Below, one piece after another: positions 1 through 54,856 of a stretch of 64,000 nt of DNA. The position numbers were made by a program, and so were the translations under genes. Position 1 is the first letter of the stretch. The number at the start of each line of letters is the position of its first letter. Source of the DNA: Siphonodentalium dalli (Eukaryota > Mollusca > Scaphopoda > Gadilida > Siphonodentaliidae); the NCBI GenBank assembly GCA_032622095.1, contig CP136067.1, forward strand, positions 177,664,556 to 177,728,555. Direction: 5' to 3'. Below the pieces are notes generated by a model. That model ran no database searches, was not told where the DNA came from, and was given only the letters and a program-made list of their open reading frames with translations.

Positions 1-563
1 GGCCGGATACTTGTGATTATGCGGACATCAGCGAGGGATAAGAAGCTGTCGGTCATCCAGGTATCCCCCAAGGTTATTGTGGCCCTGGACGGCAGTCACA
101 TCCCAAGTGTTCGTCCGTCCCAAGGTCCTGATGATTTTTCAACCGGAAGCAGTATCATTCAATTGTGTTACAATGCGTGTGTGATGACAGTGGGTGTTCA
201 TAGATGTCAGTGTTGGTATGCCAGGACAAATGCATGATGAGAAAATCTTTACTTGGGGATGCTGCTTATCCACTGGTCGATCGGATCATGACACCCTATC
301 GGGATAATGGACACCTGTCTACGAAAGAAACTAAGTTCAACACAGTTCATTCATCAAAGCGTCAACTAATAGAGAGGGAATTTGGTTTTCTGAAAAACCG
401 TTTTAATAGGTTAATGCACTGTGTGAACATAACGGATTTGTCCGAGTTATCAGAATTTGTGTTGGCCTGTTGTATTCTGCACAACTTTCTTAAACAAAAC
501 AATGATGATGTTTGTACATACAGCCAGTCACTTCCGAACGCCAGCCATCTGAATCTGTTCTAA
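1..563 (+). pseudogene. Harbinger relic monomer 1 (R class, cut by window edge)
   Basis: Only the catalytic half is inside the window. The GAGGGATAA form puts a stop just upstream of the DGSHIP block. The C-terminal frame at 204-563 has GDAAYPL and IEREFGF, then the R-class frameshift that ends in SHLNLF. It matches monomer 3 at an offset of 2625. Confidence 0.85.
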
Positions 564-570
564 CTACCTT

Positions 571-1040
571 CCCAGAGGCAGAAATGGTGCAAAGTGTAAA
601 AGGAAGACACTGACAGGTAAACTTTAGTTTGTTTATGCTGGTGGAATCCTTTGAAATGCCTGCAGCTTGGACCTCCTGAAGTAACCATGTTATGTCATCT
701 TTTAATAAGTTGATAATTAATCGTGTGCTTTATATCTACATTTAAATATATACAGTAAATATGTGGAACTTTAACTACATTACTCACAGCTGTGTATCTT
801 CACACTTTCCTATTTAAAAATCAATGACTCCCTTATCAACACATTTCGTTGTAACCGTGAATGTATAAGCATATTTTGTATTCATCACATGTTTGTCTAT
901 GATTGGAAAATAATCACAATTTAATTTGTATCTGTGTAAACAAACTGAGTCTGTCATAGCCTTTCATGTAGTTTAGAATGCCTCAATAATTGTCATTTGC
1001 ATCGTTTTCCCAACTCACAGTGATATGGACATCAGAAAAA
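571..1040. other. Inter-monomer spacer (representative)
   Basis: About 450 bp of AT-rich sequence separates each C-terminal frame from the next N-terminal piece. It has no family-like coding content. It contains TTTAAATATATACAG and runs of TTAA-rich sequence, and closes with a pyrimidine-rich TTTTCCCAACTCACAG at 1005-1020. I read it as former 3' untranslated sequence joined to the end of a former intron. Spacers are as conserved between copies as the coding relic, so the whole unit is homogenised together. Confidence 0.6.
1001..1022 (+). promoter_or_regulatory. 3' splice-acceptor-like site (representative, repeated in every monomer)
   Basis: The stretch CGTTTTCCCAACTCACAG followed by TGATATGG resembles a pyrimidine tract plus CAG acceptor and lies about 25 bp before the N-terminal transposase piece. 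The same string precedes each monomer, sometimes as CCCC or as CTCATAG (31110, 33722), which would still keep the AG. If real, the ancestral gene had an upstream exon that is not in the repeat. Confidence 0.4.
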
Positions 1041-1044
1041 GTTT

Positions 1045-1870
1045 TTGAGAACTTTCAGGGTATCTCCTGATACCTTCGAAAAGTTGTATAACAACGTGAA
1101 GGAATCACTTGTCAATGAGCCAACTCCTTCTGCGAAACCACCCACTGAACCACAGAAGTTGGCCACATTTTTAAAATATGCTGGGTCTAATGAGACAATC
1201 AACCAGATTAGCACACTCTTCAGAGTAACTGAGTCATCTGTGGTTAGAGCCTGCAGAACGGGGTTATTAATGCTATTCTTGACACTATGAGTCATAAAAT
1301 GATCAGATGACCGGATACTTGTGATTATGCGGACATCAGCGAGAGATTAGAAGCTGTCGGTCATCCAGGTATCCCCAAGGTTATTGTGGCCCTGGACGGC
1401 AGTCACATCCCAAGTGTTCGTCCGTCTCAAGGTCCTGATGATTTTTCAACCGGAAGCAGTATCATTCAATTGTGTTACAATGCGTTTGTGATGACAGTGG
1501 GTGTTCATAGATGTCAGTGTTGGTATGCCAGGACAAATGCATGATGAGAAAATCTTTACTTGGGGATGCTGCTTATCCACTGGTCGATCGGATCATGACA
1601 CCCTATCGGGATAATGGACACCTGTCTACGAAAGAAACTAAGTTCAACACAGTTCATTCATCAAAGCGTCAACTAATAGAGAGGGAATTTGGTTTTCTGA
1701 AAAACCGTTTTAATAGTTTAATGCACTGTGTGAACATAACGGATTTGTCCGAGTTATCAGAATTTGTGTTGGCCTGTTGTATTCTGCACAACTTTCTTAA
1801 ACAAAACAATGATGATGTTTGTACATACAGCCAGTCACTTCCGAACGCCAGCCATCTGAATCTGTTCTAA
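1045..1870 (+). pseudogene. Harbinger relic monomer 2 (R body with Ser variant, W-type tail)
   Basis: The N-terminal piece is open through the TTTTTAAAA (Leu) form. A TGA replaces the Trp codon before CCGGATACTT. The body carries FNSLMHC instead of FNRLMHC. After the R-class stop the sequence switches to W-type (ACAGAACTAGGCAG, then TTTGCAATGCATG), so the unit is mosaic. Confidence 0.83.
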
Positions 1871-2361
1871 CTACCTTCCCAGAGACAGAACTAGGCAGAG
1901 ATGGTGCAAAGTGTAAAAGGAAGACACTGACAGATACACTTTAGTTTGTTTATGCTGGTGGAATCCTTTGCAATGCATGTAGCTTCGGCCTCCTGAAGTC
2001 ACCATGTCATGTCATCTTTTAATAAGTTGATAATTAATCGTGTGCTTTATATCGACATTTAAATATATACAGTAAATATGTGGAACTTTAACTACATTAC
2101 TCACAGCTGTGTATCTTCACACTTTCCTATTTAAAAATCAATGACTCCCTTATCAACACATTTCGTTGTAACCGTGAATGTATAAGCATATTTTGTATTC
2201 ATCACATGTTTGTCTATGATTGGAAAATAATCACAATTTAATTTGTAACTGTGTAAACAAACTGAGTCTGTCATAGCCTTTCATGTAGTTTAGAATGCCT
2301 CAATAATTGTCATTTGCATCGTTTTCCCAACTCACAGTGATATGGACATCAGAAAAAGTTT

Positions 2362-3188
2362 TTGAGAACTTTCAGGTTATCTCCTGATACCATCGAAAAG
2401 TTGTATAACAACGTGAAGGAATCACTTGTCAATGAGCCAACTCCTTCTGCGAAACCACCCACTGAACCACAGAAGTTGGCCACATTTTAAAAATATGCTG
2501 GGTCTAATGAGACAATCAACCAGATTAGCACACTCTTCAGAGTAACTGAGTCATCTGTGGTTAGAGCCTGCAGAACGGGGTTATTAATGCTATTCTTGAA
2601 ACTATGCGTCAGAAAATGATCAGATGGCCGGATACTTGTGATTATGCGGACATCAGCGAGGGATAAGAAGCTGTCGGTCATCCAGGTATCCCCCAAGGTT
2701 ATTGTGGCCCTGGACGGCAGTCACATCCCAAGTGTTCGTCCGTCCCAAGGTCCTGATGATTTTTCAACCGGAAGCAGTATCATTCAATTGTGTTACAATG
2801 CGTGTGTGATGACAGTGGGTGTTCATAGATGTCAGTGTTGGTATGCCAGGACAAATGCATGATGAGAAAATCTTTACTTGGGGATGCTGCTTATCCACTG
2901 GTCGATCGGATCATGACACCCTATCGGGATAATGGACACCTGTCTACGAAAGAAACTAAGTTCAACACAGTTCATTCATCAAAGCGTCAACTAATAGAGA
3001 GGGAATTTGGTTTTCTGAAAAACCGTTTTAATAGGTTAATGCACTGTGTGAACATAACGGATTTGTCCGAGTTATCAGAATTTGTGTTGGCCTGTTGTAT
3101 TCTGCACAACTTTCTTAAACAAAACAATGATGATGTTTGTACATACAGCCAGTCACTTCCGAACGCCAGCCATCTGAATCTGTTCTAA
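2362..3188 (+). pseudogene. Harbinger relic monomer 3 (R class)
   Basis: It has a TTTTAA stop in the N-terminal piece and a GGGATAA stop before DGSHIP. An ATC codon (DTIEK) replaces TTC near 2392, and this marks the left limit of identity with the 5238-bp tetramer. The last 119 codons match monomer 1. Confidence 0.83.
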
Positions 3189-3669
3189 CTACCTTCCCAG
3201 AGGCAGAAATGGTGCAAAGTGTAAAAGGAAGACACTGACAGGTAAACTTTAGTTTGTTTATGCTGGTGGAATCCTTTGAAATGCCTGCAGCTTGGACCTC
3301 CTGAAGTAACCATGTTATGTCATCTTTTAATAAGTTGATAATTAATCGTGTGCTTTATATCTACATTTAAATATATACAGTAAATATGTGGAACTTTAAC
3401 TACATTACTCACAGCTGTGTATCTTCACACTTTCCTATTTAAAAATCAATGACTCCCTTATCAACACATTTCGTTGTAACCGTGAATGTATAAGCATATT
3501 TTGTATTCATCACATGTTTGTCTATGATTGGAAAATAATCACAATTTAATTTGTATCTGTGTAAACAAACTGAGTCTGTCATAGCCTTTCATGTAGTTTA
3601 GAATGCCTCAATAATTGTCATTTGCATCGTTTTCCCAACTCACAGTGATATGGACATCAGAAAAAGTTT

Positions 3670-4495
3670 TTGAGAACTTTCAGGGTATCTCCTGATACCT
3701 TCGAAAAGTTGTATAACAACGTGAAGGAATCACTTGTCAATGAGCCAACTCCTTCTGCGAAACCACCCACTGAACCACAGAAGTTGGCCACATTTTTAAA
3801 ATATGCTGGGTCTAATGAGACAATCAACCAGATTAGCACACTCTTCAGAGTAACTGAGTCATCTGTGGTTAGAGCCTGCAGAACGGGGTTATTAATGCTA
3901 TTCTTGACACTATGAGTCATAAAATGATCAGATGACCGGATACTTGTGATTATGCGGACATCAGCGAGAGATTAGAAGCTGTCGGTCATCCAGGTATCCC
4001 CAAGGTTATTGTGGCCCTGGACGGCAGTCACATCCCAAGTGTTCGTCCGTCTCAAGGTCCTGATGATTTTTCAACCGGAAGCAGTATCATTCAATTGTGT
4101 TACAATGCGTTTGTGATGACAGTGGGTGTTCATAGATGTCAGTGTTGGTATGCCAGGACAAATGCATGATGAGAAAATCTTTACTTGGGGATGCTGCTTA
4201 TCCACTGGTCGATCGGATCATGACACCCTATCGGGATAATGGACACCTGTCTACGAAAGAAACTAAGTTCAACACAGTTCATTCATCAAAGCGTCAACTA
4301 ATAGAGAGGGAATTTGGTTTTCTGAAAAACCGTTTTAATAGTTTAATGCACTGTGTGAACATAACGGATTTGTCCGAGTTATCAGAATTTGTGTTGGCCT
4401 GTTGTATTCTGCACAACTTTCTTAAACAAAACAATGATGATGTTTGTACATACAGCCAGTCACTTCCGAACGCCAGCCATCTGAATCTGTTCTAA
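3670..4495 (+). pseudogene. Harbinger relic monomer 4 (R body with Ser variant, W tail)
   Basis: Copy of monomer 2 at +2625 with the same Leu form, TGA lesion, FNSLMHC variant and W-type tail. Confidence 0.83.
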
Positions 4496-4986
4496 CTACC
4501 TTCCCAGAGACAGAACTAGGCAGAGATGGTGCAAAGTGTAAAAGGAAGACACTGACAGATACACTTTAGTTTGTTTATGCTGGTGGAATCCTTTGCAATG
4601 CATGTAGCTTCGGCCTCCTGAAGTCACCATGTCATGTCATCTTTTAATAAGTTGATAATTAATCGTGTGCTTTATATCGACATTTAAATATATACAGTAA
4701 ATATGTGGAACTTTAACTACATTACTCACAGCTGTGTATCTTCACACTTTCCTATTTAAAAATCAATGACTCCCTTATCAACACATTTCGTTGTAACCGT
4801 GAATGTATAAGCATATTTTGTATTCATCACATGTTTGTCTATGATTGGAAAATAATCACAATTTAATTTGTAACTGTGTAAACAAACTGAGTCTGTCATA
4901 GCCTTTCATGTAGTTTAGAATGCCTCAATAATTGTCATTTGCATCGTTTTCCCAACTCACAGTGATATGGACATCAGAAAAAGTTT

Positions 4987-5873
4987 TTGAGAACTTTCAG
5001 GTTATCTCCTGATACCATCGAAAAGTTGTATAACAACGTGAAGGAATCACTTGTCAATGAGCCAACTCCTTCTGCGAAACCACCCACTGAACCACAGAAG
5101 TTGGCCACATTTTAAAAATATGCTGGGTCTAATGAGACAATCAACCAGATTAGCACACTCTTCAGAGTAACTGAGTCATCTGTGGTTAGAGCCTGCAGAA
5201 CGGGGTTATTAATGCTATTCTTGAAACTATGCGTCAGAAAATGATCAGATGGCCGGATACTTGTGATTATGCGGACATCAGCGAGGGATAAGAAGGTATC
5301 CCCCAATGTTATTGTGGCCCTGGACGGCAGTCACATCCCAAGTGTTCGTCCGTCCCAAGGTCCTGATGATTTTTCAACCGGAAGCAGTATCATTCAATTG
5401 TGTTACAATGCGTGTGTGATGACAGTGGGTGTTCATAGATGTCAGTGTTGGTATGCCAGGACAAATGCATGATGAGAAAATCTTTACTTGGGGATGCTGC
5501 TTATCCACTGGTCGATTGGATCATGACACCCTATCAGGATAATGGACACCTGTCTACGAAAGAAACTAAGTTCAACATAGTTCATTCATCAAAGCGTCAG
5601 GTAATAGAGAGGGAATTTGGTTTTCTGAAAAACCATTTTAATAGGTTAATGCATTGTGTGAACATAACGAATTTGTCTGAGTTATCAGAATTTGTGTTGG
5701 CCTGTTGTATTCTGCACAACTTTCTTAAACAAAACAATGATGTTTGTTTGGACATACAGCCAGTCACTTCCGATAGCCAGCCATCTGAATCTGTTCTAAC
5801 TACCTTCCCAGAGGCAGAACTAGGCAGAGATGGTGCAAAGTGTAAAAGGAAGACACTGACAGATAAACTTTAG
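4987..5873 (+). pseudogene. Harbinger relic monomer 5 (W class)
   Basis: First W-class unit. An in-frame 15-bp deletion joins AGAAG to GTATCCCCC at 5295. The C-terminal frame stays open for 144 codons (DVCLDIQPVTSDSQ to TLTDKL), which I take as the ancestral C-terminus. It has DWIMTPYQDN where most copies have YRDN. Confidence 0.84.
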
Positions 5874-6289
5874 TTTGTTTATGCTGGTGGAATCCTTTGC
5901 AATGCATGTAGCTTCGGCCTCCTGAAGTCACCATGTCATGTCATCTTTTAATAAGTTGATAATTAATCGTGTGCTTTATATCGACATTTAAATATATACA
6001 GTAAATATGTGGAACTTTAACTACATTACTCACAGCTGTGTATCTTCACACTTTCCTATTTAAAAATCAATGACTCCCTTATCAACACATTTCGTTGTAA
6101 CCGTGAATGTATAAGCATATTTTGTATTCATCACATGTTTGTCTATGATTGGAAAATAATCACAATTTAATTTGTATCTGTGTAAACAAATGAGTCTGTC
6201 ATAGCCTTTCATGTAGTTTAGAATGCCTCAATAATTGTCATTTGCATCGTTTTCCCAACTCACAGTGATATGGACATCAGAAAAAGTTT

Positions 6290-7118
6290 TTGAGAACTTT
6301 CAGGTTATCTCCTGATACCTTCGAAAAGTTGTATAACAACGTGAAGGAATCACTTGTCAATGAGCCAACTCCTTCTGCGAAACCACCCACTGAACCACAG
6401 AAGTTGGCCACATTTTAAAAATATGCTGGGTCTAATGAGACAATCAACCAGATTAGCACACTCTTCAGAGTAACTGAGTCATCTGTGGTTAGAGCCTGCA
6501 GAACGGGGTTATTAATGTTATTCTTGAAACTATGCGTCAGAAAATGATCAGATGGCCGGATACTTGAGATTATGCGGACATCAGCGACATATTAGAAGCT
6601 GTCGGTCATCCAGGTATCCCCAAGGTTATTGTGGCCCTGGACGGCAGTCACATCATCCCAAGTGTTCGTCCGTCTCAAGGTCCTGATGATTTTTCAACCG
6701 GAAGCAGTATCATTCAATTGTGTTACAATGCGTTTGTGATGACAGTGGGTGTTCATAGATGTCAGTGTTGGTATGCCAGGACAAATGCATGATGAGAAAA
6801 TCTTTACTTGGGGATGCTGCTTATCCACTGGTCGATCGGATCATGACACCCTATCGGGATAATGGACACCTGTCTACGAAAGAAACTAAGTTCAACACAG
6901 TTCATTCGTCAAAGCGTCAACTAATAGAGAGGGAATTTGGTTTTCTGAAAAACCGTTTTAATAGGTTAATGCACTGTGTGAACATAACGGATTTGTCCGA
7001 GTTATCAGAATTTGTGTTGGCCTGTTGTATTCTGCACAACTTTCTTAAACAAAACAATGATGATGTTTGTACATACAGCCAGTCACTTCCGAACGCCAGC
7101 CATCAGAATCTGTTCTAA
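6290..7118 (+). pseudogene. Harbinger relic monomer 6 (R class, ATC insertion)
   Basis: A 3-bp ATC insertion gives SHIIPS in the first-Asp block. A TGA replaces the TGT Cys codon in TACTTGAGATT. The tail reads SHQNLF. It differs from monomer 10 at 6590 (T versus G at 11828). Confidence 0.83.
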
Positions 7119-7599
7119 CTACCTTCCCAGAGGCAGAAATGGTGCAAAGTGTAAAAGGAAGACACTGACAGGTAAACTTTAGTTTGTTTATGCTGGTGGA
7201 ATCCTTTGAAATGCCTGCAGCTTGGACCTCCTGAAGTAACCATGTTACGTCATCTTTTAATAAGTTGATAATTAATCGTGTGCTTTATATCTACATTTAA
7301 ATATATACAGTAAATATGTGGAACTTTAACTACATTACTCACAGCTGTGTATCTTCACACTTTCCTATTTAAAAATCAATGACTCCCTTATCAACACATT
7401 TCGTTGTAACCGTGAATGTATAAGCATATTTTGTATTCATCACATGTTTGTCTATGATTGGAAAATAATCACAATTTAATTTGTATCTGTGTAAACAAAC
7501 TGAGTCTGTCATAGCCTTTCATGTAGTTTAGAATGCCTCAATAATTGTCATTTGCATCGTTTTCCCAACTCACAGTGATATGGACATCAGAAAAAGTTT

Positions 7600-8426
7600 T
7601 TGAGAACTTTCAGGGTATCTCCTGATACCTTCGAAAAGTTGTATAACAACGTGAAGGAATCACTTGTCAATGAGCCAACTCCTTCTGCGAAACCACCCAC
7701 TGAACCACAGAAGTTGGCCACATTTTAAAAATATGCTGGGTCTAATGAGACAATCAACCAGATTAGCACACTCTTCAGAGTAACTGAGTCATCTGTGGTT
7801 AGAGCCTGCAGAACGGGGTTATTAATGCTATTCTTGAAACTATGCGTCAGAAAATGATCAGATGGCCGGATACTTGTGATTATGCGGACATCAGCGAGGG
7901 ATAAGAAGCTGTCGGTCATCCAGGTATCCCCCAAGGTTATTGTGGCCCTGGACGGCAGTCACATCCCAAGTGTTCGTCCGTCCCAAGGTCCTGATGATTT
8001 TTCAACCGGAAGCAGTATCATTCAATTGTGTTACAATGCGTGTGTGATGACAGTGGGTGTTCATAGATGTCAGTGTTGGTATGCCAGGACAAATGCATGA
8101 TGAGAAAATCTTTACTTGGGGATGCTGCTTATCCACTGGTCGATCGGATCATGACACCCTATCGGGATAATGGACACCTGTCTACGAAAGAAACTAAGTT
8201 CAACACAGTTCATTCATCAAAGCGTCAACTAATAGAGAGGGAATTTGGTTTTCTGAAAAACCGTTTTAATAGGTTAATGCACTGTGTGAACATAACGGAT
8301 TTGTCCGAGTTATCAGAATTTGTGTTGGCCTGTTGTATTCTGCACAACTTTCTTAAACAAAACAATGATGATGTTTGTACATACAGCCAGTCACTTCCGA
8401 ACGCCAGCCATCTGAATCTGTTCTAA
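7600..8426 (+). pseudogene. Harbinger relic monomer 7 (R class)
   Basis: Counterpart of monomer 3 in the second 5238-bp tetramer. It has the TTTTAA stop and the GGGATAA stop, but carries CAGGGTATC and CTTCGA in the N-terminal piece, unlike monomer 3. Confidence 0.83.
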
Positions 8427-8907
8427 CTACCTTCCCAGAGGCAGAAATGGTGCAAAGTGTAAAAGGAAGACACTGACAGGTAAACTTTAGTTTGTTTATG
8501 CTGGTGGAATCCTTTGAAATGCCTGCAGCTTGGACCTCCTGAAGTAACCATGTTATGTCATCTTTTAATAAGTTGATAATTAATCGTGTGCTTTATATCT
8601 ACATTTAAATATATACAGTAAATATGTGGAACTTTAACTACATTACTCACAGCTGTGTATCTTCACACTTTCCTATTTAAAAATCAATGACTCCCTTATC
8701 AACACATTTCGTTGTAACCGTGAATGTATAAGCATATTTTGTATTCATCACATGTTTGTCTATGATTGGAAAATAATCACAATTTAATTTGTATCTGTGT
8801 AAACAAACTGAGTCTGTCATAGCCTTTCATGTAGTTTAGAATGCCTCAATAATTGTCATTTGCATCGTTTTCCCAACTCACAGTGATATGGACATCAGAA
8901 AAAGTTT

Positions 8908-9733
8908 TTGAGAACTTTCAGGGTATCTCCTGATACCTTCGAAAAGTTGTATAACAACGTGAAGGAATCACTTGTCAATGAGCCAACTCCTTCTGCGAAA
9001 CCACCCACTGAACCACAGAAGTTGGCCACATTTTTAAAATATGCTGGGTCTAATGAGACAATCAACCAGATTAGCACACTCTTCAGAGTAACTGAGTCAT
9101 CTGTGGTTAGAGCCTGCAGAACGGGGTTATTAATGCTATTCTTGACACTATGAGTCATAAAATGATCAGATGACCGGATACTTGTGATTATGCGGACATC
9201 AGCGAGAGATTAGAAGCTGTCGGTCATCCAGGTATCCCCAAGGTTATTGTGGCCCTGGACGGCAGTCACATCCCAAGTGTTCGTCCGTCTCAAGGTCCTG
9301 ATGATTTTTCAACCGGAAGCAGTATCATTCAATTGTGTTACAATGCGTTTGTGATGACAGTGGGTGTTCATAGATGTCAGTGTTGGTATGCCAGGACAAA
9401 TGCATGATGAGAAAATCTTTACTTGGGGATGCTGCTTATCCACTGGTCGATCGGATCATGACACCCTATCGGGATAATGGACACCTGTCTACGAAAGAAA
9501 CTAAGTTCAACACAGTTCATTCATCAAAGCGTCAACTAATAGAGAGGGAATTTGGTTTTCTGAAAAACCGTTTTAATAGTTTAATGCACTGTGTGAACAT
9601 AACGGATTTGTCCGAGTTATCAGAATTTGTGTTGGCCTGTTGTATTCTGCACAACTTTCTTAAACAAAACAATGATGATGTTTGTACATACAGCCAGTCA
9701 CTTCCGAACGCCAGCCATCTGAATCTGTTCTAA
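8908..9733 (+). pseudogene. Harbinger relic monomer 8 (Ser variant, W tail)
   Basis: Matches monomer 4 at +5238, including the TGA lesion before CCGGATACTT and the W-type tail after an R-class C-terminal frame. Confidence 0.83.
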
Positions 9734-10224
9734 CTACCTTCCCAGAGACAGAACTAGGCAGAGATGGTGCAAAGTGTAAAAGGAAGACACTGACAGATAC
9801 ACTTTAGTTTGTTTATGCTGGTGGAATCCTTTGCAATGCATGTAGCTTCGGCCTCCTGAAGTCACCATGTCATGTCATCTTTTAATAAGTTGATAATTAA
9901 TCGTGTGCTTTATATCGACATTTAAATATATACAGTAAATATGTGGAACTTTAACTACATTACTCACAGCTGTGTATCTTCACACTTTCCTATTTAAAAA
10001 TCAATGACTCCCTTATCAACACATTTCGTTGTAACCGTGAATGTATAAGCATATTTTGTATTCATCACATGTTTGTCTATGATTGGAAAATAATCACAAT
10101 TTAATTTGTAACTGTGTAAACAAACTGAGTCTGTCATAGCCTTTCATGTAGTTTAGAATGCCTCAATAATTGTCATTTGCATCGTTTTCCCAACTCACAG
10201 TGATATGGACATCAGAAAAAGTTT

Positions 10225-11111
10225 TTGAGAACTTTCAGGTTATCTCCTGATACCATCGAAAAGTTGTATAACAACGTGAAGGAATCACTTGTCAATGAGC
10301 CAACTCCTTCTGCGAAACCACCCACTGAACCACAGAAGTTGGCCACATTTTAAAAATATGCTGGGTCTAATGAGACAATCAACCAGATTAGCACACTCTT
10401 CAGAGTAACTGAGTCATCTGTGGTTAGAGCCTGCAGAACGGGGTTATTAATGCTATTCTTGAAACTATGCGTCAGAAAATGATCAGATGGCCGGATACTT
10501 GTGATTATGCGGACATCAGCGAGGGATAAGAAGGTATCCCCCAATGTTATTGTGGCCCTGGACGGCAGTCACATCCCAAGTGTTCGTCCGTCCCAAGGTC
10601 CTGATGATTTTTCAACCGGAAGCAGTATCATTCAATTGTGTTACAATGCGTGTGTGATGACAGTGGGTGTTCATAGATGTCAGTGTTGGTATGCCAGGAC
10701 AAATGCATGATGAGAAAATCTTTACTTGGGGATGCTGCTTATCCACTGGTCGATTGGATCATGACACCCTATCAGGATAATGGACACCTGTCTACGAAAG
10801 AAACTAAGTTCAACATAGTTCATTCATCAAAGCGTCAGGTAATAGAGAGGGAATTTGGTTTTCTGAAAAACCATTTTAATAGGTTAATGCATTGTGTGAA
10901 CATAACGAATTTGTCTGAGTTATCAGAATTTGTGTTGGCCTGTTGTATTCTGCACAACTTTCTTAAACAAAACAATGATGTTTGTTTGGACATACAGCCA
11001 GTCACTTCCGATAGCCAGCCATCTGAATCTGTTCTAACTACCTTCCCAGAGGCAGAACTAGGCAGAGATGGTGCAAAGTGTAAAAGGAAGACACTGACAG
11101 ATAAACTTTAG
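10225..11111 (+). pseudogene. Harbinger relic monomer 9 (W class)
   Basis: Matches monomer 5 at +5238 with the same 15-bp deletion and YQDN variant. The C-terminal frame is open for 144 codons. Confidence 0.84.
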
Positions 11112-42524: not shown

Positions 42525-45107
42525 TTTGTTTATGCTGGTGGAATCCTTTGCAATGCATGTAGCTTCGACCTCCTGAAGTCACCATGTCATGTCATCTTTT
42601 AATAAGTTGATAATTAATCGTGTGCGTTATATCGACATTTAAATATATACAGTAAATATGTGGAACTTTAACTACATTACTCACAGCTGTGTATCTTCGC
42701 ACTTTCCTATTTAAAAATCAATGACTCCCGTATCAACACATTTCGTTGTAACCGTGAATGTATAAGCATATTTTGTATTCATCACATGTTTGTCTATGAT
42801 TGGAAAATAATCACAATTTAATTTGTATCTGTGTAAACAAATGAGTCTGTCATAGCCTTTCATGTAGTTTAGAATGCCTCAATAATTGTCATTTGCATCG
42901 TTTTCCCCAACTCACAGTGATATGGACATCAGAAAAAGTTTTTGAGAACTTTCAGGTTATCTCCTGATACCTTCGAAAAGTTGTATAACAACGTGAAGGA
43001 ATCACTTGTCAATGAGCCAACTCCTTCTGCGAAACCACCCACTGAACCACAGAAGTTGGCCACATTTTAAAAATATGCTGGGTCTAATGAGACAATCAAC
43101 CAGATTAGCACACTCTTCAGAGTAACTGAGTCATCTGTGGTTAGAGCCTGCAGAACGGGGTTATTAATGCTATTCTTGAAACTATGCGTCAGAAAATGAT
43201 CAGATGGCCGGATACTTGTGAGTATGCGGACATCAGCGACAGATTAGAAGCTGTCGGTCATCCAGGTATCCCCAAGGTTATTGTGGCCCTGGACGGCAGT
43301 CACATCCCAAGTGTTCGTCCGTCTCAAGGTCCTGATGATTTTTCAACCGGAAGCAGTATCATTCAATTGTGTTACAATGCGTTTGTGATGACAGTGGGTG
43401 TTCATAGATGTCAGTGTTGGTATGCCAGGACAAATGCATGATGAGAAAATCTTTACTTGGGGATGCTGCTTATCCACTGGTCGATCGGATCATGACACCC
43501 TATCGGGATAATGGACACCTGTCTACGAAAGAAACTAAGTTCAACACAGTTCATTCGTCAAAGCGTCAACTAATGGAGAGGGAATTTGGTTTTCTGAAAA
43601 ACCGTTTTAATAGGTTAATGCACTGTGTGAACATAACGAATTTGTCTGAGTTGTCAGAATTTGTGTTGGCCTGTTGTATTCTGCACAACTTTCTTAAACA
43701 AAACAATGATGTTTGTTTGGACATACAGCCAGTCACTTCCGATAGCCAGCCATCTGAATCTGTTCTAACTACCTTCCCAGAGGCAGAACTAGGCAGAGAT
43801 GGTGCAAAGTGTAAAAGGAAGACACTGACACATAAACTTTAGTTTGTTTATGCTGGTGGAATCCTTTGCAATGCATGTAGCTTCGACCTCCTGAAGTCAC
43901 CATGTCATGTCATCTTTTAATAAGTTGATAATTAATCGTGTGCGTTATATCGACATTTAAATATATACAGTAAATATGTGGAACTTTAACTACATTACTC
44001 ACAGCTGTGTATCTTCGCACTTTCCTATTTATAAATCAATGACTCCCGTATCAACACATTTCGTTGTAACCGTGAATGTATAAGCATATTTTGTATTCAT
44101 CACATGTTTGTCTATGATTGGAAAATAATCACAATTTAATTTGTATCTGTGTAAACAAATGAGTCTGTCATAGCCTTTCATGTAGTTTAGAATGCCTCAA
44201 TAATTGTCATTTGCATCGTTTTCCCCAACTCACAGTGATATGGACATCAGAAAAAGTTTTTGAGAACTTTCAGGTTATCTCCTGATACCTTCGAAAAGTT
44301 GTATAACAACGTGAAGGAATCACTTGTCAATGAGCCAACTCCTTCTGCGAAACCACCCACTGAACCACAGAAGTTGGCCACATTTTAAAAATATGCTGGG
44401 TCTAATGAGACAATCAACCAGATTAGCACACTCTTCAGAGTAACTGAGTCATCTGTGGTTAGAGCCTGCAGAACGGGGTTATTAATGCTATTCTTGAAAC
44501 TATGCGTCAGAAAATGATCAGATGGCCGGATACTTGTGAGTATGCGGACATCAGCGACAGATTAGAAGCTGTCGGTCATCCAGGTATCCCCAAGGTTATT
44601 GTGGCCCTGGACGGCAGTCACATCCCAAGTGTTCGTCCGTCTCAAGGTCCTGATGATTTTTCAACCGGAAGCAGTATCATTCAATTGTGTTACAATGCGT
44701 TTGTGATGACAGTGGGTGTTCATAGATGTCAGTGTTGGTATGCCAGGACAAATGCATGATGAGAAAATCTTTACTTGGGGATGCTGCTTATCCACTGGTC
44801 GATCGGATCATGACACCCTATCGGGATAATGGACACCTGTCTACGAAAGAAACTAAGTTCAACACAGTTCATTCGTCAAAGCGTCAACTAATGGAGAGGG
44901 AATTTGGTTTTCTGAAAAACCGTTTTAATAGGTTAATGCACTGTGTGAACATAACGAATTTGTCTGAGTTGTCAGAATTTGTGTTGGCCTGTTGTATTCT
45001 GCACAACTTTCTTAAACAAAACAATGATGTTTGTTTGGACATACAGCCAGTCACTTCCGATAGCCAGCCATCTGAATCTGTTCTAACTACCTTCCCAGAG
45101 GCAGAAA
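42335..45107 (+). repeat. Direct duplication of one recombinant monomer, 1318-bp period
   Basis: Sequence from about 42335 recurs at +1318 to about 45107. Shared markers are THKL, GTGCGTTATATCG, TATCTTCGCAC and CTAATGGAG. The R-to-W recombinant arose once and was then duplicated in tandem. Confidence 0.83.
42942..43842 (+). pseudogene. Harbinger relic monomer 34 (R-to-W recombinant)
   Basis: The 5' part is R class (DRIMTPY, FNTVHSS, QLMEREFGFLKNRF). From about 43635 it is W class (NITNLSELSEF to THKL), giving a 144-codon frame. A stop (TTTTAA) remains in the N-terminal piece. Confidence 0.86.
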
Positions 45108-45136
45108 TGGTGCAAAGTGTAAAAGGAAGACACTGA
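44260..45136 (+). pseudogene. Harbinger relic monomer 35 (R-W-R mosaic)
   Basis: Matches monomer 34 at +1318 up to about 45107, then returns to an R-type tail (GGCAGAAATGG), so the frame closes at 136 codons. Confidence 0.86.
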
Positions 45137-45567
45137 CAGGTAAACTTTAGTTTGTTTATGCTGGTGGAATCCTTTGAAATGCCTGCAGCTTGGACCTCCT
45201 GAAGTAACCATGTTATGTCATCTTTTAATAAGTTGATAATTAATCGTGTGCTTTATATCTACATTTAAATATATACAGTAAATATGTGGAACTTTAACTA
45301 CATTACTCACAGCTGTGTATCTTCACACTTTCCTATTTAAAAATCAATGACTCCCTTATCAACACATTTCGTTGTAACCGTGAATGTATAAGCATATTTT
45401 GTATTCATCACATGTTTGTCTATGATTGGAAAATAATCACAATTTAATTTGTATCTGTGTAAACAAACTGAGTCTGTCATAGCCTTTCATGTAGTTTAGA
45501 ATGCCTCAATAATTGTCATTTGCATCGTTTTCCCAACTCACAGTGATATGGACATCAGAACAAGTTT

Positions 45568-46468
45568 TTGAGAACTTTCAGGTTATCTCCTGATACCTTC
45601 GAAAAGTTGTATAACAACGTGAAGGAATCACTTGTCAATGAGCCAACTCCTTCTGCGAAACCACCCACTGAACCACAGAAGTTGGCCACATTTTAAAAAT
45701 ATGCTGGGTCTAATGAGACAATCAACCAGATTAGCACACTCTTCAGAGTAACTGAGTCATCTGTGGTTAGAGCCTGCAGAACGGGGTTATTAATGCTATT
45801 CTTGAAACTATGCGTCAGAAAATGATCAGATGGCCGGATACTTGTGATTATGAGGACATCAGCGAGGGATAAGAAGCTGTCGGTCATCCAGGTATCCCCA
45901 AGGTTATTGTGGCCCTGGACGGCAGTCACATCCCAAGTGTTCGTCCGTCCCAAGGTCCTGATGATTTTTCAACCGGAAGCAGTATCATTCAATAGTGTTA
46001 CAATGCGCGTGTGATGACAGTGGGTGTTCATAGATGTCAGTGTTGGTATGCCAGGACAAATGCATGATGAGAAAATCTTTACTTGAGGATGCTGCTTATC
46101 CACTGGTCGATTGGATCATGACACCCTATCGGGATAATGGACACCTGTCTACGAAAGAAACTAAGTTCAACATAGTTCATTCATCAAAGCGTCAGGTAAT
46201 AGAGAGGGAATTTGGTTTTCTGAAAAAACATTTTAATAGGTTAATGCATTGTGTGAACATAACGAATTTGTCTGAGTTATCAGAATTTGTGTTGGCCTGT
46301 TGTATTCTGCACAACTTTCTTAAACAAAACAATGATGTTTGTTTGGACATACAGCCAGTCACTTCCGATAGCCAGCCATCTGAATCTGTTCTAACTACCT
46401 TCCCAGAGGCAGAACTAGGCAGAGATGGTGCAAAGTGTAAAAGGAAGACACTGACAGATAAACTTTAG
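45568..46468 (+). pseudogene. Harbinger relic monomer 36 (W class)
   Basis: Private changes include Gly to Glu beside the second Asp (LLEDAAYPL), CAATAGTG (a stop in the SIIQL segment) and ATGAGGAC. The 144-codon C-terminal frame is open. Confidence 0.84.
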
Positions 46469-46884
46469 TTTGTTTATGCTGGTGGAATCCTTTGCAATGC
46501 ATGTAGCTTCGACCTCCTGAAGTCACCATGTCATGTCATCTTTTAATAAGTTGATAATTAATCGTGTGCTTTATATCGACATTTAAATATATACAGTAAA
46601 TATGTGGAACTTTAACTACATTACTCACAGCTGTGTATCTTCACACTTTCCTATTTAAAAATCAATGACTCCCTTATCAACACATTTCGTTGTAACCGTG
46701 AATGTATAAGCATATTTTGTATTCATCACATGTTTGTCTATGATTGGAAAATAATCACAATTTAATTTGTATCTGTGTAAACAAATGAGTCTGTCATAGC
46801 CTTTCATGTAGTTTAGAATGCCTCAATAATTGTCATTTGCATCGTTTTCCCAACTCACAGTGATATGGACATCAGAACAAGTTT

Positions 46885-47761
46885 TTGAGAACTTTCAGGT
46901 TATCTCCTGATACCTTCGAAAAGTTGTATAACAACGTGAAGGAATCACTTGTCAATGAGCCAACTCCTTCTGCGAAACCACCCACTGAACCACAGAAGTT
47001 GGCCACATTTTTAAAATATGCTGGGTCTAATGAGACAATCAACCAGATTAGCACACTCTTCAGAGTAACTGAGTCATATGTGGTTAGAGCCTGCAGAACG
47101 GGGTTATTAATGCTATTCTTGAAACTATGCGTCAGAAAATGATCAGATGGCCGGATACTTGTGATTATGCGGACATCAGCGACAGATTAGAAGCTGTCGG
47201 TCATCCAGGTATCCCCAAGGTTATTGTGGCCCTGGACGGCAGTCACATCCCAAGTGTTCGTCCGTCCCAAGGTCCTGATGATTTTTCAACCGGAAGCAGT
47301 ATCATTCAATTGTGTTACAATGCGTGTGTGATGACAGTGGGTGTTCATAGATGTCAGTGTTGGTATGCCAGGACAAATGCATGATGAGAAAATCTTTACT
47401 TGGGGATGCTGCTTATCCACTGGTCGATTGGATCATGACACCCTATCGGGATAATGGACACCTGTCTACGAAAGAAACTAAGTTCAACATAGTTCATTCA
47501 TCAAAGCGTCAGGTAATAGAGAGGGAATTTGGTTTTCTGAAAAACCATTTTAATAGGTTAATGCATTGTGTGAACATAACGAATTTGTCTGAGTTATCAG
47601 AATTTGTGTTGGCCTGTTGTATTCTGCACAACTTTCTTAAACAAAACAATGATGTTTGTTTGGACATACAGCCAGTCACTTCCGATAGCCAGCCATCTGA
47701 ATCTGTTCTAACTACCTTCCCAGAGGCAGAAATGGTGCAAAGTGTAAAAGGAAGACACTGA
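46885..47761 (+). pseudogene. Harbinger/HARBI1-like transposase relic, monomer 37 (reference description)
   Basis: This is one of the better preserved monomers and serves as reference. PIF/Harbinger transposases are nuclear DDE enzymes that cut and paste DNA with TTA/TAA targets. An open N-terminal piece (46885-47142, non-ATG start) reads RLSPDTFEKLYNNV and an ISTLFRVTES helix typical of the family's DNA-binding region. A frameshift near 47100 leads to the MRQKMIRWPD frame (47127-47384) with first catalytic Asp in VALDGSHIPSVRP. A second frameshift near 47340 moves to a VGMPGQMHDE frame, the family's PGxxHD block, which breaks off. The next frame (47351-47761) resumes with GDAAYPL (second Asp, residue 19) and IEREFGFLKNHF (Glu, residue 57), then the ACCILHNFL helix. 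Asp-Glu spacing fits DDE_Tnp_4. The residues expected between HDE and LLGDAAYP are missing. It is W class with an R-type patch near 47720 that ends the tail at 136 codons. A Ser-to-Tyr change (TESYVV) is private. It cannot encode an active enzyme. Confidence 0.88.
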
Positions 47762-48192
47762 CAGATAAACTTTAGTTTGTTTATGCTGGTGGAATCCTTT
47801 GCAATGCATGTAGCTTCGACCTCCTGAAGTCACCATGTCATGTCATCTTTTAATAAGTTGATAATTAATCGTGTGCTTTATATCGACATTTAAATATATA
47901 CAGTAAATATGTGGAACTTTAACTACATTACTCACAGCTGTGTATCTTCACACTTTCCTATTTAAAAATCAATGACTCCCGTATCAACACATTTCAATGT
48001 AACCGTGAATGTATAAGCATATTTTGTATTCATCACATGTTTGTCTATGATTGGAAAATAATCACAATTTAATTTGTATCTGTGTAAACAAATGAGTCTG
48101 TCATAGCCTTTCATGTAGTTTAGAATGCCTCAATAATTGTCATTTGCATCGTTTTCCCCAACTCACAGTGATATGGACATCAGAAAAAGTTT

Positions 48193-49018
48193 TTGAGAAC
48201 TTTCAGGTTATCTCCTGATACCTTCGAAAAGTTGTATAACAACGTGAAGGAATCACTTGTCAATGAGCCAACTCCTTCTGCGAAACCACCCACTGAACCA
48301 CAGAAGTTGGCCACATTTTAAAAATATGCTGGGTCTAATGAGACAATCAACCAGATTAGCACACTCTTCAGAGTAACTGAGTCATCTGTGGTTAGAGCCT
48401 GCAGAACGGGGTTATTAATGCTATTCTTGAAACTATGCGTCAGAAAATGATCAGATGGCCGGATACTTGTGATTATGCGGACATCAGCGACAGATTAGAA
48501 GCTGTCGGTCATCCAGGTATCCCCAAGGTTATTGTGGCCCTGGACGGCAGTCACATCCCAAGTGTTCGTCCGTCTCAAGGTCCTGATGATTTTTCAACCG
48601 GAAGCAGTATCATTCAATTGTGTTACAATGCGTTTGTGATGACAGTGGGTGTTCATAGATGTCAGTGTTGGTATGCCAGGACAAATGCATGATGAGAAAA
48701 TCTTTACTTGGGGATGCTGCTTATCCACTGGTCGATCGGATCATGACACCCTATCGGGATAATGGACACCTGTCTACGAAAGAAACTAAGTTCAACACAG
48801 TTCATTCGTCAAAGCGTCAACTAATAGAGAGGGAATTTGGTTTTCTGAAAAACCGTTTTAATAGGTTAATGCACTGTGTGAACATAACGGATTTGTCCGA
48901 GTTATCAGAATTTGTGTTGGCCTGTTGTATTCTGCACAACTTTCTTAAACAAAACAATGATGATGTTTGTACATACAGCCAGTCACTTCCGAACGCCAGC
49001 CATCTGAATCTGTTCTAA
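48193..49018 (+). pseudogene. Harbinger relic monomer 38 (R class)
   Basis: The MRQKMIRWPD frame is open at 48435-48692. The C-terminal 119 codons are R class. The spacer upstream has ATTTCAATGTAACC, a private change. Confidence 0.83.
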
Positions 49019-49502
49019 CTACCTTCCCAGAGGCAGAAATGGTGCAAAGTGTAAAAGGAAGACACTGACAGGTAAACTTTAGTTTGTTTATGCTGGTGGA
49101 ATCCTTTGAAATGCCTGCAGCTTGGACCCCCTGAAGTAACCATGTTATGTCATCTTTTAATAAGTTGATAATTAATCGTGTGCTTTATATCTACATTTAA
49201 ATATATACAGTAAATATGTGGAACTTTAACTACATTACTCACAGCTGTGTATCTTCACACTTTCCTATTTAAAAATCAATGACTCCCTTATCAACACATC
49301 ATTTCGTTGTAACCGTGAATGTATAAGCATATTTTGTATTCATCAAATGTTTGTCTATGATTGGAAAATAATCACAATTTAATTTGTATCTGTGTAAACA
49401 AACTGAGTCTGTCATAGCCTTTCATGTAGTTTAGAATGCCTCAATAATTGTCATTTGCATCGTTTTCCCAACTCACAGTGATATGGACATCAGAAAAAGT
49501 TT

Positions 49503-50328
49503 TTGAGAACTTTCAGGGTATCTCCTGATACCTTCGAAAAGTTGTATAACAACGTGAAGGAATCACTTGTCAATGAGCCAACTCCTTCTGCGAAACCACC
49601 CACTGAACCACAGAAGTTGGCCACATTTTAAAAATATGCTGGGTCTAATGAGACAATCAACCAGATTAGCACACTCTTCAGAGTAACTGAGTCATCTGTG
49701 GTTAGAGCCTGCAGAACGGGGTTATTAATGCTATTCTTGAAACTATGCGTCAGAAAATGATCAGATGGCCGGATACTTGTGATTATGCGGACATCAGCGA
49801 CAGATTAGAAGCTGTCGGTCATCCAGGTATCCCCAAGGTTATTGTGGCCCTGGACGGTAGTCACATCCCAAGTGTTCGTCCGTCCCAAGGTCCTGATGAT
49901 TTTTCAACCGGAAGCAGTATCATTCAATTGTGTTACAATGCGTGTGTGATGACAGTGGGTGTTCATAGATGTCAGTGTTGGTATGCCAGGACAAATGCAT
50001 GATGAGAAAATCTTTACTTGGGGATGCTGCTTATCCACTGGTCGATCGGATCATGACACCCTATCGGGATAATGGACACCTGTCTACGAAAGAAACTAAG
50101 TTCAACACAGTTCATTCGTCAAAGCGTCAACTAATAGAGAGGGAATTTGGTTTTCTGAAAAACCGTTTTAATAGGTTAATGCACTGTGTGAACATAACGG
50201 ATTTGTCCGAGTTATCAGAATTTGTGTTGGCCTGTTGTATTCTGCACAACTTTCTTAAACAAAACAATGATGATGTTTGTACATACAGCCAGTCACTTCC
50301 GAACGCCAGCCATCTGAATCTGTTCTAA
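49503..50328 (+). pseudogene. Harbinger relic monomer 39 (R class)
   Basis: Open first-Asp frame at 49745-50002 with GGACGGTAGTC. Monomers 38 to 40 share a CAACACATCATTTCG 3-bp insertion in the following spacer, which marks a local three-unit expansion. Confidence 0.83.
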
Positions 50329-50812
50329 CTACCTTCCCAGAGGCAGAAATGGTGCAAAGTGTAAAAGGAAGACACTGACAGGTAAACTTTAGTTTGTTTA
50401 TGCTGGTGGAATCCTTTGAAATGCCTGCAGCTTGGACCTCCTGAAGTAACCATGTTATGTCATCTTTTAATAAGTTGATAATTAATCGTGTGCTTTATAT
50501 CTACATTTAAATATATACAGTAAATATGTGGAACTTTAACTACATTACTCACAGCTGTGTATCTTCACACTTTCCTATTTAAAAATCAATGACTCCCTTA
50601 TCAACACATCATTTCGTTGTAACCGTGAATGTATAAGCATATTTTGTATTCATCACATGTTTGTCTATGATTGGAAAATAATCACAATTTAATTTGTATC
50701 TGTGTAAACAAACTGAGTCTGTCATAGCCTTTCATGTAGTTTAGAATGCCTCAATAATTGTCATTTGCATCGTTTTCCCAACTCACAGTGATATGGACAT
50801 CAGAAAAAGTTT

Positions 50813-51641
50813 TAGAGAACTTTCAGGTTATCTCCTGATACCTTCGAAAAGTTGTATAACAACGTGAAGGAATCACTTGTCAATGAGCCAACTCCTTCTG
50901 CGAAACCACCCACTGAACCACAGAAGTTGGCCACATTTAAAAAATATGCTGGGTCTAATAAGACAATCAACCAGATTAGCACACTCTTCAGAGTAACTGA
51001 GTCATCTGTGGTTAGAGCCTGCAGAACGGGGTTATTAATGCTATTCTTGAAACTATGCGTCAGAAAATGATCAGATGGCCGGATACTTGTGATTATGCGG
51101 ACATCAGCGACAGATTAGAAGCTGTCGGTCATCCAGGTATCCCCAAGGTTATTGTGGCCCTGGACGGCAGTCACATCATCCCAAGTGTTCGTCCGTCTCA
51201 AGGTCCTGATGATTTTTCAACCGGAAGCAGTATCATTCAATTGTGTTACAATGCGTTTGTTATGACAGTGGGTGTTCATAGATGTCAGTGTTGGTATGCC
51301 AGGACAAATGCATGATGAGAAAATCTTTACTTGGGGATGCTGCTTATCCACTGGTCGATCGGATCATGACACCCTATCGGGATAATGGACACCTGTCTAC
51401 GAAAGAAACTAAGTTCAACACAGTTCATTCGTCAAAGCGTCAACTAATAGAGAGGGAATTTGGTTTTCTGAAAAACGGTTTTAATAGGTTAATGCACTGT
51501 GTGAACATAACGGATTTGTCCGAGTTATCAGAATTTGTGTTGGCCTGTTGTATTCTGCACAACTTTCTTAAACAAAACAATGATGATGTTTGTACATACA
51601 GCCAGTCACTTCCGAACGCCAGCCATCTGAATCTGTTCTAA
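50813..51641 (+). pseudogene. Harbinger relic monomer 40 (R class)
   Basis: TTTTAGAGAAC replaces TTTTTGAGAAC at the start of the N-terminal piece. It has the Lys form, SHIIPS, NKTINQ instead of NETINQ, and LKNGF instead of LKNRF. Confidence 0.83.
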
Positions 51642-52125
51642 CTAACTTCCCAGAGGCAGAAATGGTGCAAAGTGTAAAAGGAAGACACTGACAGGTAAAC
51701 TTTAGTTTGTTTATGCTGGTGGAATCCTTTGAAATGCCTGTAGCTTGGACCTCCTGAAGTAACCATGTTATGTCATCTTTTAATAAGTTGATAATTAATC
51801 GTGTGCTTTATATCTACATTTAAATATATACAGTAAATATGTGGAACTTTAACTACATTACTCACAGCTGTGTATCTTCACACTTTCCTATTTAAAAATC
51901 AATGACTCCCTTATCAACACATCATTTCGTTGTAACCGTGAATGTATAAGCATATTTTGTATTCATCACATGTTTGTCTATGATTGGAAAATAATCACAA
52001 TTTAATTTGTATCTGTGTAAACAAACTGAGTCTGTCATAGCCTTTCATGTAGTTTAGAATGCCTCAATAATTGTCATTTGCATCGTTTTCCCAACTCACA
52101 GTGATATGGACATCAGAAAAAGTTT

Positions 52126-53026
52126 TTGAGAACTTTCAGGGTATCTCCTGATACCTTCGAAAAGTTGTATAACAACGTGAAGGAATCACTTGTCAATGAG
52201 CCAACTCCTTCTGCGAAACCACCCACTGAACCACAGAAGTTGGCCACATTTTAAAAATATGCTGGGTCTAATGAGACAATCAACCAGATTAGCACACTCT
52301 TCAGAGTAACTGAGTCATCTGTGGTTAGAGCCTGCAGAACGGGGTTATTAATGCTATTCTTGAAACTATGCGTCAGAAAATGATCAGATGGCCGGATACT
52401 TGTGATTATGCGGACATCAGCGACAGATTAGAAGCTGTCGGTCATCCAGGTATCCCCAAGGTTATTGTGGCCCTGGACGGTAGTCACATCCCAAGTGTTC
52501 GTCCGTCCCAAGGTCCTGATGATTTTTCAACCGGAAGCAGTATCATTCAATTGTGTTACAATGCGTGTGTGATGACAGTGGGTGTTCATAGATGTCAGTG
52601 TTGGTATGCCAGGACAAATGCATGATGAGAAAATCTTTACTTGGGGATGCTGCTTATCCACTGGTCGATTGGATCATGACACCCTATCGGGATAATGAAC
52701 ACCTGTCTACGAAAGAAACTAAGTTCAACATAGTTCATTCATCAAAGAGTCAGGTAATAGAGAGGGAATTTGGTTTTCTGAAAAACCATTTTAATAGGTT
52801 AATGCATTGTGTGAACATAACGAATTTGTCTGAGTTATCAGAATTTGTGTTGGCCTGTTGTATTCTGCACAACTTTCTTAAACAAAACAATGATGTTTGT
52901 TTGGACATACAGCCAGTCACTTCCGATAGCCAGCCATCTGAATCTGTTCTAACTACCTTCCCAGAGGCAAAACTAGGCAGAGATGGTGCAAAGTGTAAAA
53001 GGAAGACACTGACAGATAAACTTTAG
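52126..53026 (+). pseudogene. Harbinger relic monomer 41 (W class)
   Basis: The 144-codon frame is open with private NEHLST, SKSQV and PEAKL changes. Its spacer has the same 14-bp CCACATAAAC loss as monomers 24 and 26, about 20 kb to the left. Confidence 0.84.
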
Positions 53027-53429
53027 TTTGTTTATGCTGGTGGAATCCTTTGCAATGCATGTAGCTTCGACCTCCTGAAGTCACCATGTCATGTCATCTT
53101 TTAATAAGTTGATAATTAATCGTGTGCTTTATATCGACATTTAAATATATCCACATAAACTACATTACTCACAGCTGTGTATCTTCACACTTTCCTATTT
53201 AAAAATCAATGACTCCCTTATCAACACATTTCGTTGTAACCGTGAATGTATAAGCATATTTTGTATTCATCACATGTTTGTCTATGATTGGAAAATAATC
53301 ACAATTTAATTTGTATCTGTGTAAACAAACTGAGTCTGTCATAGCCTTTCATGTAGTTTAGAATGCCTCAATAATTGTCATTTGCATCGTTTTCCCAACT
53401 CACAGTGATATGGACATGAGAACAAGTTT

Positions 53430-54280
53430 TTGAGAACTTTCAGGTTATCTCCTGATACCTTCGACTGCGAAACCACCCACTGAACCACAGAAGTTGGCCA
53501 CATTTTAAAAATATGCTGGGTCTAATGAGACAATCAACCAGATTAGCACACTCTTCAGAGTAACTGAGTCATCTGTGGTTAGAGCCTGCAGAACGGGGTT
53601 ATTAATGCTATTCTTGAAACTATGCGTCAGAAAATGATCAGATGGCCGGATACTTGTGATTATGCGGACATCAGCGACAGATTAGAAGCTGTCGGTCATC
53701 CAGGTATCCCCAAGGTTATTGTGGCCCTGGACGGCAGTCACATCCCAAGTGTTCGTCCGTCCCAAGGTCCTGATGATTTTTCAACCGGAAGCAGTATCAT
53801 TCAATTGTGTTACAATGCGTGTGTGATGACAGTGGGTGTTCATATATGTCAGTGTTGGTATGCCAGGACAAATGCATGATGAGAAAATCTTTACTTGGGG
53901 ATGCTGCTTATCCACTGGTTGATTGGACCATGACACCCTATCGGGATAATGGACACCTGTCTACGAAAGAAACTAAGTTCAACATAGTTCATTCATCAAA
54001 GCGTCAGGGAATAGAGAGGGAATTTGGTTTTCTGAAAAAACATTTTAATAGGTTTATGCACTGTGTGAACATAACGAATTTGTCTGAGTTATCAGAATTT
54101 GTGTTGGCCTGTTGTATTCTGCACAACTTTCTTAAACAAAACAATGATGTTTGTTTGGACATACATCCAGTCACTTCCGATAGCCAGCCATCTGAATCTG
54201 TTCTAACTACCTTCCCAGAGGCAGAACTGGGCAGAGATGGTGCAAAGTGTAAAAGGAAGACACTGACAGATAAACTTTAG
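53430..54280 (+). pseudogene. Harbinger relic monomer 42 (right-edge unit, W class)
   Basis: Last unit. A 50-bp deletion at 53464/53465 removes most of the EKLYNNV to TPS segment. Many private substitutions occur (CATATATG, GATTGGACC, CAGGGAATAG, GGTTTATGC, CATCCAG). Its spacer starts W-like (CTTCGACC), becomes R-like (AAGTAACCATGTTATG), then stops at 54388. Confidence 0.85.
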
Positions 54281-54386
54281 TTTGTTTATGCTGGTGGAAT
54301 CCTTTGCAATGCATGTAGCTTCGACCTCCTGAAGTAACCATGTTATGTCATCTTTTAATAAGTTGATAATTAATCGTGTGCTTTAT

Positions 54387-54856
54387 ATCACTCCAAATGT
54401 GTCCGATTAATTTTTTTGCTAAAAGTAAACAATTTCAATTGTTTAAGCGGATCTTTGTTAAAGTCAAACAATTTATATTGGTTGATACGAGATATTGACT
54501 TGTTTGTTTTGAGCAATTGATTTAACAAAAAACAAGTAATTGTTTGAAGAGATAATATCATTTGTTAGACCAAAACAAAATATTGTTTAAAACAACTAAC
54601 TCAATGACTCAAATTAGCCAAAATACACAGTTCAAATTAAACAATTTAAAAACTGATATTAACCAATACAAATTGTTTGGCTTTAACAAATGATATTGTT
54701 CAAAACAACTAACTCAATGACTCAAATTAACCAAAATACACAGTTCAAGTTAAACAATTCAATAACTCAAATAAAACAATAAAATCGTTTGATTTTACTT
54801 AAACAATTGCAATTGTTTAATTTGTACAAACATGAATCGAACACATTTGGAGTGAT
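54387..54856. mobile_element. 470-bp fold-back (MITE-like) element at the array edge
   Basis: The left end CACTCCAAATGTGTCCGATT (54389) is matched inverted by the right end ending at 54854, with one mismatch in 20. Further inverted matches lie inside: 54456-54493 with 54653-54690, and TAAACAATT-type stems near both ends. There is also a direct repeat of about 71 bp inside (54580-54650 and 54693-54763, offset 113). No coding capacity is seen, and no convincing target duplication: the left flank is array sequence and the right flank is not. The family is not assigned. Confidence 0.7.

Follow-up and report, generated by a model that had tools for sequence, protein, structure and literature searches.

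The 64,000-nucleotide window analysed here (the whole stretch of DNA, C7:177664556-177728555, on contig CP136067.1 of the Siphonodentalium dalli assembly GCA_032622095.1) carries the right half of a long tandem array. Its unit contains a piece of a PIF/Harbinger-type transposase, the DDE_Tnp_4 region, which is broken in all copies. The array very probably arose from a dead Harbinger-type copy that was duplicated in tandem at a microhomology and then grew by unequal exchange. The original prediction, which was made from the letters of the window, that a dead element had been amplified by recombination and not by transposition, was supported by the lesions common to the units, the TCA joints, the lack of inverted 12-mers in the one unit tested, the presence of one array as far as the searches reach, the higher-order pattern and the lack of codon bias within the array.

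The assembly has a total length of 2.23 Gb in 9 contigs. The whole array occupies C7:177601882-177718944, a span of 117,063 bp of which 92,768 bp is satellite. BLAST tiling and cutting at the repeating joint showed 72 units of ~1.31 kb, head to tail and in a single orientation, with unit boundaries defined as cuts at a single anchor in which up to 6 substitutions were allowed. The predicted head-to-tail array of more than 54 kb was recovered at window positions 1-54389, and the predicted 42 copies were also found, as 42 units overlap the window (m31, partial, to m72) and 41 start inside it. The array does not begin at the first base of the window but continues 62.7 kb further left on the same contig. 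By size, 68 units were full-length (1292-1319 bp), three were of 912 bp with a common 407-bp deletion and one was truncated at 970 bp. No N bases were present in the 134 kb read. The parts of the array in the window are as follows.

1-54389, plus strand: right part of the array, units m31 (partial) to m72, from BLAST tiling and unit cutting.
1035-2351, plus strand: m32, the first whole unit in the window, 1317 bp, cut at the repeating joint.
53420-54389, plus strand: m72, the last unit, truncated and second most divergent of the 72, from unit cutting.

The unit begins ~65 bp into a putative exon, spans all three catalytic blocks and the stop codon, and ends after ~0.4 kb of 3' non-coding sequence. 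The exon boundary would be placed by a CAG acceptor in a relative of the unit on contig C1 (L014), which was ~11% different from the unit and retains 59 bp gone from all 72 units. L014 has an open frame of 274 amino acids that matched PF13359 DDE_Tnp_4 over the full profile (1-158 of 158, E = 4.6e-36), with weaker matches to Plant_tran and DDE_Tnp_1. ALDGSHI, GDGAYPL and ERAFGFLK occur in that order in this frame, and we take them to be the catalytic D, D and E blocks. The frames of the units gave partial matches to the same profile. A sequence search of the transposase against PDB produced no matches at E values up to 0.01. The frames located in the window are as follows.

51016-51312, plus strand: frame fragment of one unit with the first catalytic block (VALDGSHI, a catalytic role that we presume), without a Pfam match of its own.
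51282-51638, plus strand: frame fragment containing GDAAYPL as well as the later catalytic block, a match to PF13359 DDE_Tnp_4 at E = 2.6e-16.
53777-54277, plus strand: 3' frame of m72, 167 amino acids, open to DKL, DDE_Tnp_4, E = 2.5e-17.

Every copy had been predicted to carry the same frameshifts and the same gap between the PGxxHDE and GDAAYPL blocks. The gap proved to be a 59-bp deletion between the HD (PGxxHD) and GDAAYPL blocks relative to L014, present in 72 of 72 units, and a 1-bp deletion ahead of it (L014 5447) was equally universal. A core set of frameshifts was also confirmed, with a 2-bp insertion (L014 5209) in 71 of 72 units, m48 being the exception, and a 1-bp deletion (L014 5392) in 70 of 72, absent from m01 and m04, which lie to the left of the window. 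The remaining lesions, however, were confined to subsets of the array: a 10-bp deletion in 41 of 72 units (neither m01 nor m72 among them), a further 1-bp insertion in 19 of 72 and a nonsense codon at L014 5295 in 25 of 72. A second nonsense codon (TAA, L014 5121) was common to L014 itself and 57 of the 72 units, while the left-end unit m01 has TTA, a leucine, at this position.

The majority sequence of the array differed from L014 at 57 of 295 third codon positions and at 47 of 588 first and second positions (odds ratio 2.76, p = 2.3e-6), and therefore the separated lineages were under coding constraint for part of their history. Variation between the units of the array affected 45 of 295 third and 79 of 588 first and second positions (odds ratio 1.16, p = 0.47), thus no constraint was seen there. 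Overall, these counts support a once-constrained coding sequence that died and was then amplified by recombination. The lesions common to the units point the same way, and death likely came before duplication. The array is presumably non-coding, and no function is assigned to it.

The joint between units is a 3-bp microhomology, TCA, at which a 3' flank of the L014 type (GGACATCATGC) is fused to exon sequence of the left-end type (CACTCAGAACAAG). Most units read GACATCA/GAAAAAG at this place, the left end reads CACTCA/GAACAAG and L014 reads GACATCA/TGCTATC. Over 24 bases, 56 of the 71 joints were identical, 10 had a single-base difference and the other 5 had one or a few differences. An example in the window is as follows.

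1025-1045, plus strand: repeating joint GACATCA/GAAAAAG, by sequence comparison with L014 and the left end.

Outside the array, the left flank aligned upstream of the C1 copy in two parts, L007 6120-7389 with L014 3812-5044 at 80% and L007 5726-6020 with L014 3458-3765 at 86%. The left end keeps the flank of the founder because the sequence left of the first unit aligns upstream of the C1 copy. A dispersed repeat makes up the first ~0.5 kb of this flank, and the remainder was found only at C7 and C1 among the best 40 of 223 candidates. The dispersed repeat of ~0.5-0.7 kb upstream of the left end was considered as an element terminus and rejected, being present at many places with no clear ends. 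The C1 copies lie within a longer segmental duplication.

The 68 full-length units differed by 1.77% on average and by 4.0% at most, and 19 of their 2278 pairs were identical. Chance as an explanation of the array was not an issue because these units are only 1.8% apart on average. Pairs no more than 0.2% apart were absent between neighbours (0 of 71) and were found for 8 of 70 pairs at distance 2, 17 of 68 at distance 4 and 7 of 64 at distance 8. With 2000 permutations each, the mean number of such pairs was ~1.3-1.4 and the maximum was 6 for distance 4 and 7 for distance 2. A quick tree placed the nearest relative 2 or 4 units off for 38 of 72 units. The array thus has nested higher-order repeats of 2 and 4 units. 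In mean distance to the other units, m01 ranked first and m72 second of the 72. A homogenised interior with divergent edges is what the theory of unequal exchange expects, and the higher-order pattern together with the divergent end units is what unequal exchange predicts.

In the proposed course of events, a PIF/Harbinger-type transposase gene copy on C7 would have lost its function, with 59 bp deleted between the first and the second catalytic block. The segment that starts ~65 bp inside the putative exon and ends ~0.4 kb beyond the stop codon may then have been duplicated in tandem via the 3-bp microhomology, and unequal exchange would have produced the 72 units with their nested 2- and 4-unit higher-order repeats, homogenised interior and more divergent end copies. 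A foldback element built of satellite inserted into a unit in the left half, probably at a later time, and an inverted-repeat element would have come to be fused, at an internal point, to the right end of the array.

Several points weigh against this history. The lesions could also have spread by homogenisation after the first duplication. The codon-position test was based on few sites and treated linked sites as independent. The leucine of m01, where L014 and 57 of the 72 units have a stop, is unexplained by a simple history with a single founder; recurrent mutation or exchange between the loci is possible for the TAA common to L014 and the units. Copy number and unit order are those of the assembly, and the genome searches scored the best candidates only.

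A rolling-circle mechanism, in which the units were amplified from a circular intermediate and not by unequal exchange in steps, would account equally well for the single repeating joint, and blocks of several units could then be single events. However, repeated exchange agrees better with the divergence of the end units and with the mixture of 2- and 4-unit periods, and a second array was not found among the best 6 of 8 candidates of the whole-unit search, which makes a circle unlikely. An array of functional genes from a domesticated Harbinger transposase, some copies of which would still make a truncated protein, is considered very improbable. The C1 and C7 lineages do differ mostly at third positions, a sign of past coding constraint, open frames of ~150-290 amino acids were listed for many units and the genome has few copies of the lineage of the unit. 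Nevertheless, variation within the array showed no codon-position bias, the 59-bp and 1-bp deletions are present in all 72 units and nonsense codons in 57 and 25 of them. An artefact in which the assembly expanded or mis-joined a shorter repeat was judged to have an equally small chance. Some units are identical (the 19 pairs above), but the units carry distinct indels, one of them is interrupted by a 24.3-kb insertion whose 9-bp duplication is exact, no N was present and both array edges join unlike sequence. Finally, repeated transposition, with many Harbinger copies inserted side by side, is scarcely credible despite the many other Harbinger-type frames in the genome, given that the 71 joints are alike apart from small changes, that all units have the same orientation and that the single unit tested had no inverted 12-mers.

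As had been proposed with the original prediction, the whole assembly was searched with the monomer. Among the best 6 of 8 candidates, C7 gave matches in the array and in a single fragment 2 kb left of it, and the only other matches were at two places on C1. These two places, L014 (181.1 Mb) and L015 (183.1 Mb), represent one locus that is present twice, at a distance of 2 Mb, through a segmental duplication with 98.3-99.6% identity, and L015 carries an extra ~4 kb inside the transposase. In the protein search, the next relatives were ~30-43% identical among the matches listed (best 141 of 600 candidates). At least 34 stop-free Harbinger-type frames were observed over all nine contigs, mostly of 357 amino acids, 34% identical to that of L014 and with an equal score of 83.4 bits. 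The equal scores suggest that these frames may be near-identical copies of a recently active family. A probe of the 3' flank gave 40 places, all in the array (best 40 of 75 candidates); the known C1 relatives were missed, thus this result is no evidence of rarity. Whole PIF/Harbinger elements have terminal inverted repeats, a 3-bp TWA target duplication and a second, Myb/SANT-like gene.

With its 72 homogenised head-to-tail units and no codon-position bias within, the array has features of a satellite. Abundance at several loci or chromosomes was not seen, as only one array and the C1 relatives were found in the whole-unit search (best 6 of 8 candidates). As far as the genome searches reach, it is better called a single-locus, macrosatellite-like array. 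Transposon-derived satellites are described in two reviews as whole or partial elements amplified in tandem (PMC9659126, PMC12628747), and the array is a further satellite of this already known kind. The term "harbinger" was absent from the main text of both reviews and from the available text of PMC8268682 and PMC10218199. Among the titles and abstract starts listed by a literature search, none described a satellite from a Harbinger transposase, which is not proof of absence. The nearest precedent found for a satellite from a transposase domain is CficCl-61-40 of Chenopodium, whose source is the tnp2 transposase domain of Jozin, a CACTA-like element (PMC7320549). In both cases the monomer comes from the transposase domain of a DNA transposon via a deletion derivative, and a parental fragment is still present at the start of the array (PMC7320549). 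CficCl-61-40 has a monomer of ~40 bp, arrays beside the fragment of 1.9-5.0 kb and high abundance in several species (PMC7320549), whereas the C7 array has a 1.3-kb unit with the whole DDE region and 3' flank, was found at one locus and comes from another superfamily. The prediction that the array is unusual is therefore fair with respect to Harbinger, but a transposase-domain satellite has already been published (PMC7320549) and the scale is modest (93 kb, one locus).

The main interest of the array is how fully its history can be read. The birth of a satellite usually has to be reconstructed at a time when the array has long been separated from its parent. In this case a single assembly still shows a parental relative, the flank of the founder, the joint of the duplication and the array in its grown state. 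Loss of constraint, duplication by microhomology, exchange, higher-order repeats and divergent edges are steps that can be tested on one locus. A PIF/Harbinger-type transposase core is also added to the known sources of satellites.

One unit in the left half of the array, outside the window, is split by a 24,286-bp insert at C7:177609060-177633345 (L008 4505 to L010 8790). The insert lies between an exact 9-bp duplication (AACTTTAAC) and has terminal inverted repeats. Otherwise it consists of 141 matches to a monomer of ~173 bp, 104 in one orientation followed by 37 in the opposite one. Its 24-base end had 27 forward and 26 reverse exact occurrences in the genome, compared to 0 for a control. 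A total of 38 of these 53 ends could be paired into 19 elements of 5.6-61.3 kb on C1, C3, C4, C5, C7, C8 and C9. An exact 9-bp target duplication was found at 15 of the 19 paired elements, and was not found at C3:163596685, C1:97483942, C3:189222567 and C9:21879848. Three of the 15, at C7:112.59, 112.90 and 113.20 Mb, have common flanks and are probably one insertion that was copied, which leaves 13 of 17 independent cases with the duplication.

Four elements were read whole (C7, C4:47725507, C1:97483942 and C1:112357065). In three of them the monomers matched their own element better (mean best identity 0.989-0.995) than any other element (up to 0.990), while in the smallest the identity was 0.974 within the element and 0.976 to C7. 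When monomers were matched at 98% identity, the longest collinear run was 3 for C7 with each of the other three elements, 2 for C1:112357065 with C4 and 10 for C4 with C1:97483942, so that in four of five element pairs the longest run was only 2-3 monomers, at the outer end. The short runs and the closer matches within elements indicate that the arrays probably grow or turn over after insertion, and the runs of 2-3 monomers favour a short mobile element whose arrays grow in this way. The gaps between monomers in the four whole elements did not exceed 120 bp, therefore no gene fits in them. A bolder and rather doubtful idea is that satellite and transposon have been converted into each other in both directions at this locus, where a dead Harbinger transposase turned into a 93-kb satellite that then received a transposon consisting almost entirely of another satellite, and, at its boldest, that foldback elements jump as whole arrays of up to 61 kb and spread satellites between chromosomes; the 9-bp duplications at 15 of 19 elements fit the jumping of whole arrays.

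A comparable system is the foldback transposon Tetris with the TIR-220 satellite of Drosophila virilis, a DNA transposon that seeds satellite arrays (PMC4079207). The 24.3-kb element resembles Tetris, as described there, in having inverted repeats made of tandem repeats (173 bp compared to ~220 bp) and in its target duplication (9 bp compared to 8-10 bp) (PMC4079207). However, the repeats of Tetris are terminal-repeat sequence whereas the C7 array is transposase, and the paired foldback elements of this genome are far larger, reaching 61 kb.

At the right edge, the array is joined to a dispersed element resembling a miniature inverted-repeat transposable element (MITE), and no target duplication was seen at this edge. 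A 468-bp repeat at the edge was ruled out as a complete element, as two copies show that its left arm is truncated. The features of the right edge are as follows.

54386-54393, plus strand: right array edge, a break joined to the inside of the dispersed inverted-repeat element, with ~3 bp (ATC) common to both sides.
54390-54921, no strand assigned: dispersed inverted-repeat (MITE-like) element with its left arm truncated at the array edge, by comparison with copies.

On the opposite side, 1.9 kb left of the array, a second and shorter transposase fragment with another internal deletion was identified (L007 4855-5356). This fragment lies within L007 4745-5464 (C7:177599300-177600019), between 114-bp direct repeats that are 91% identical.

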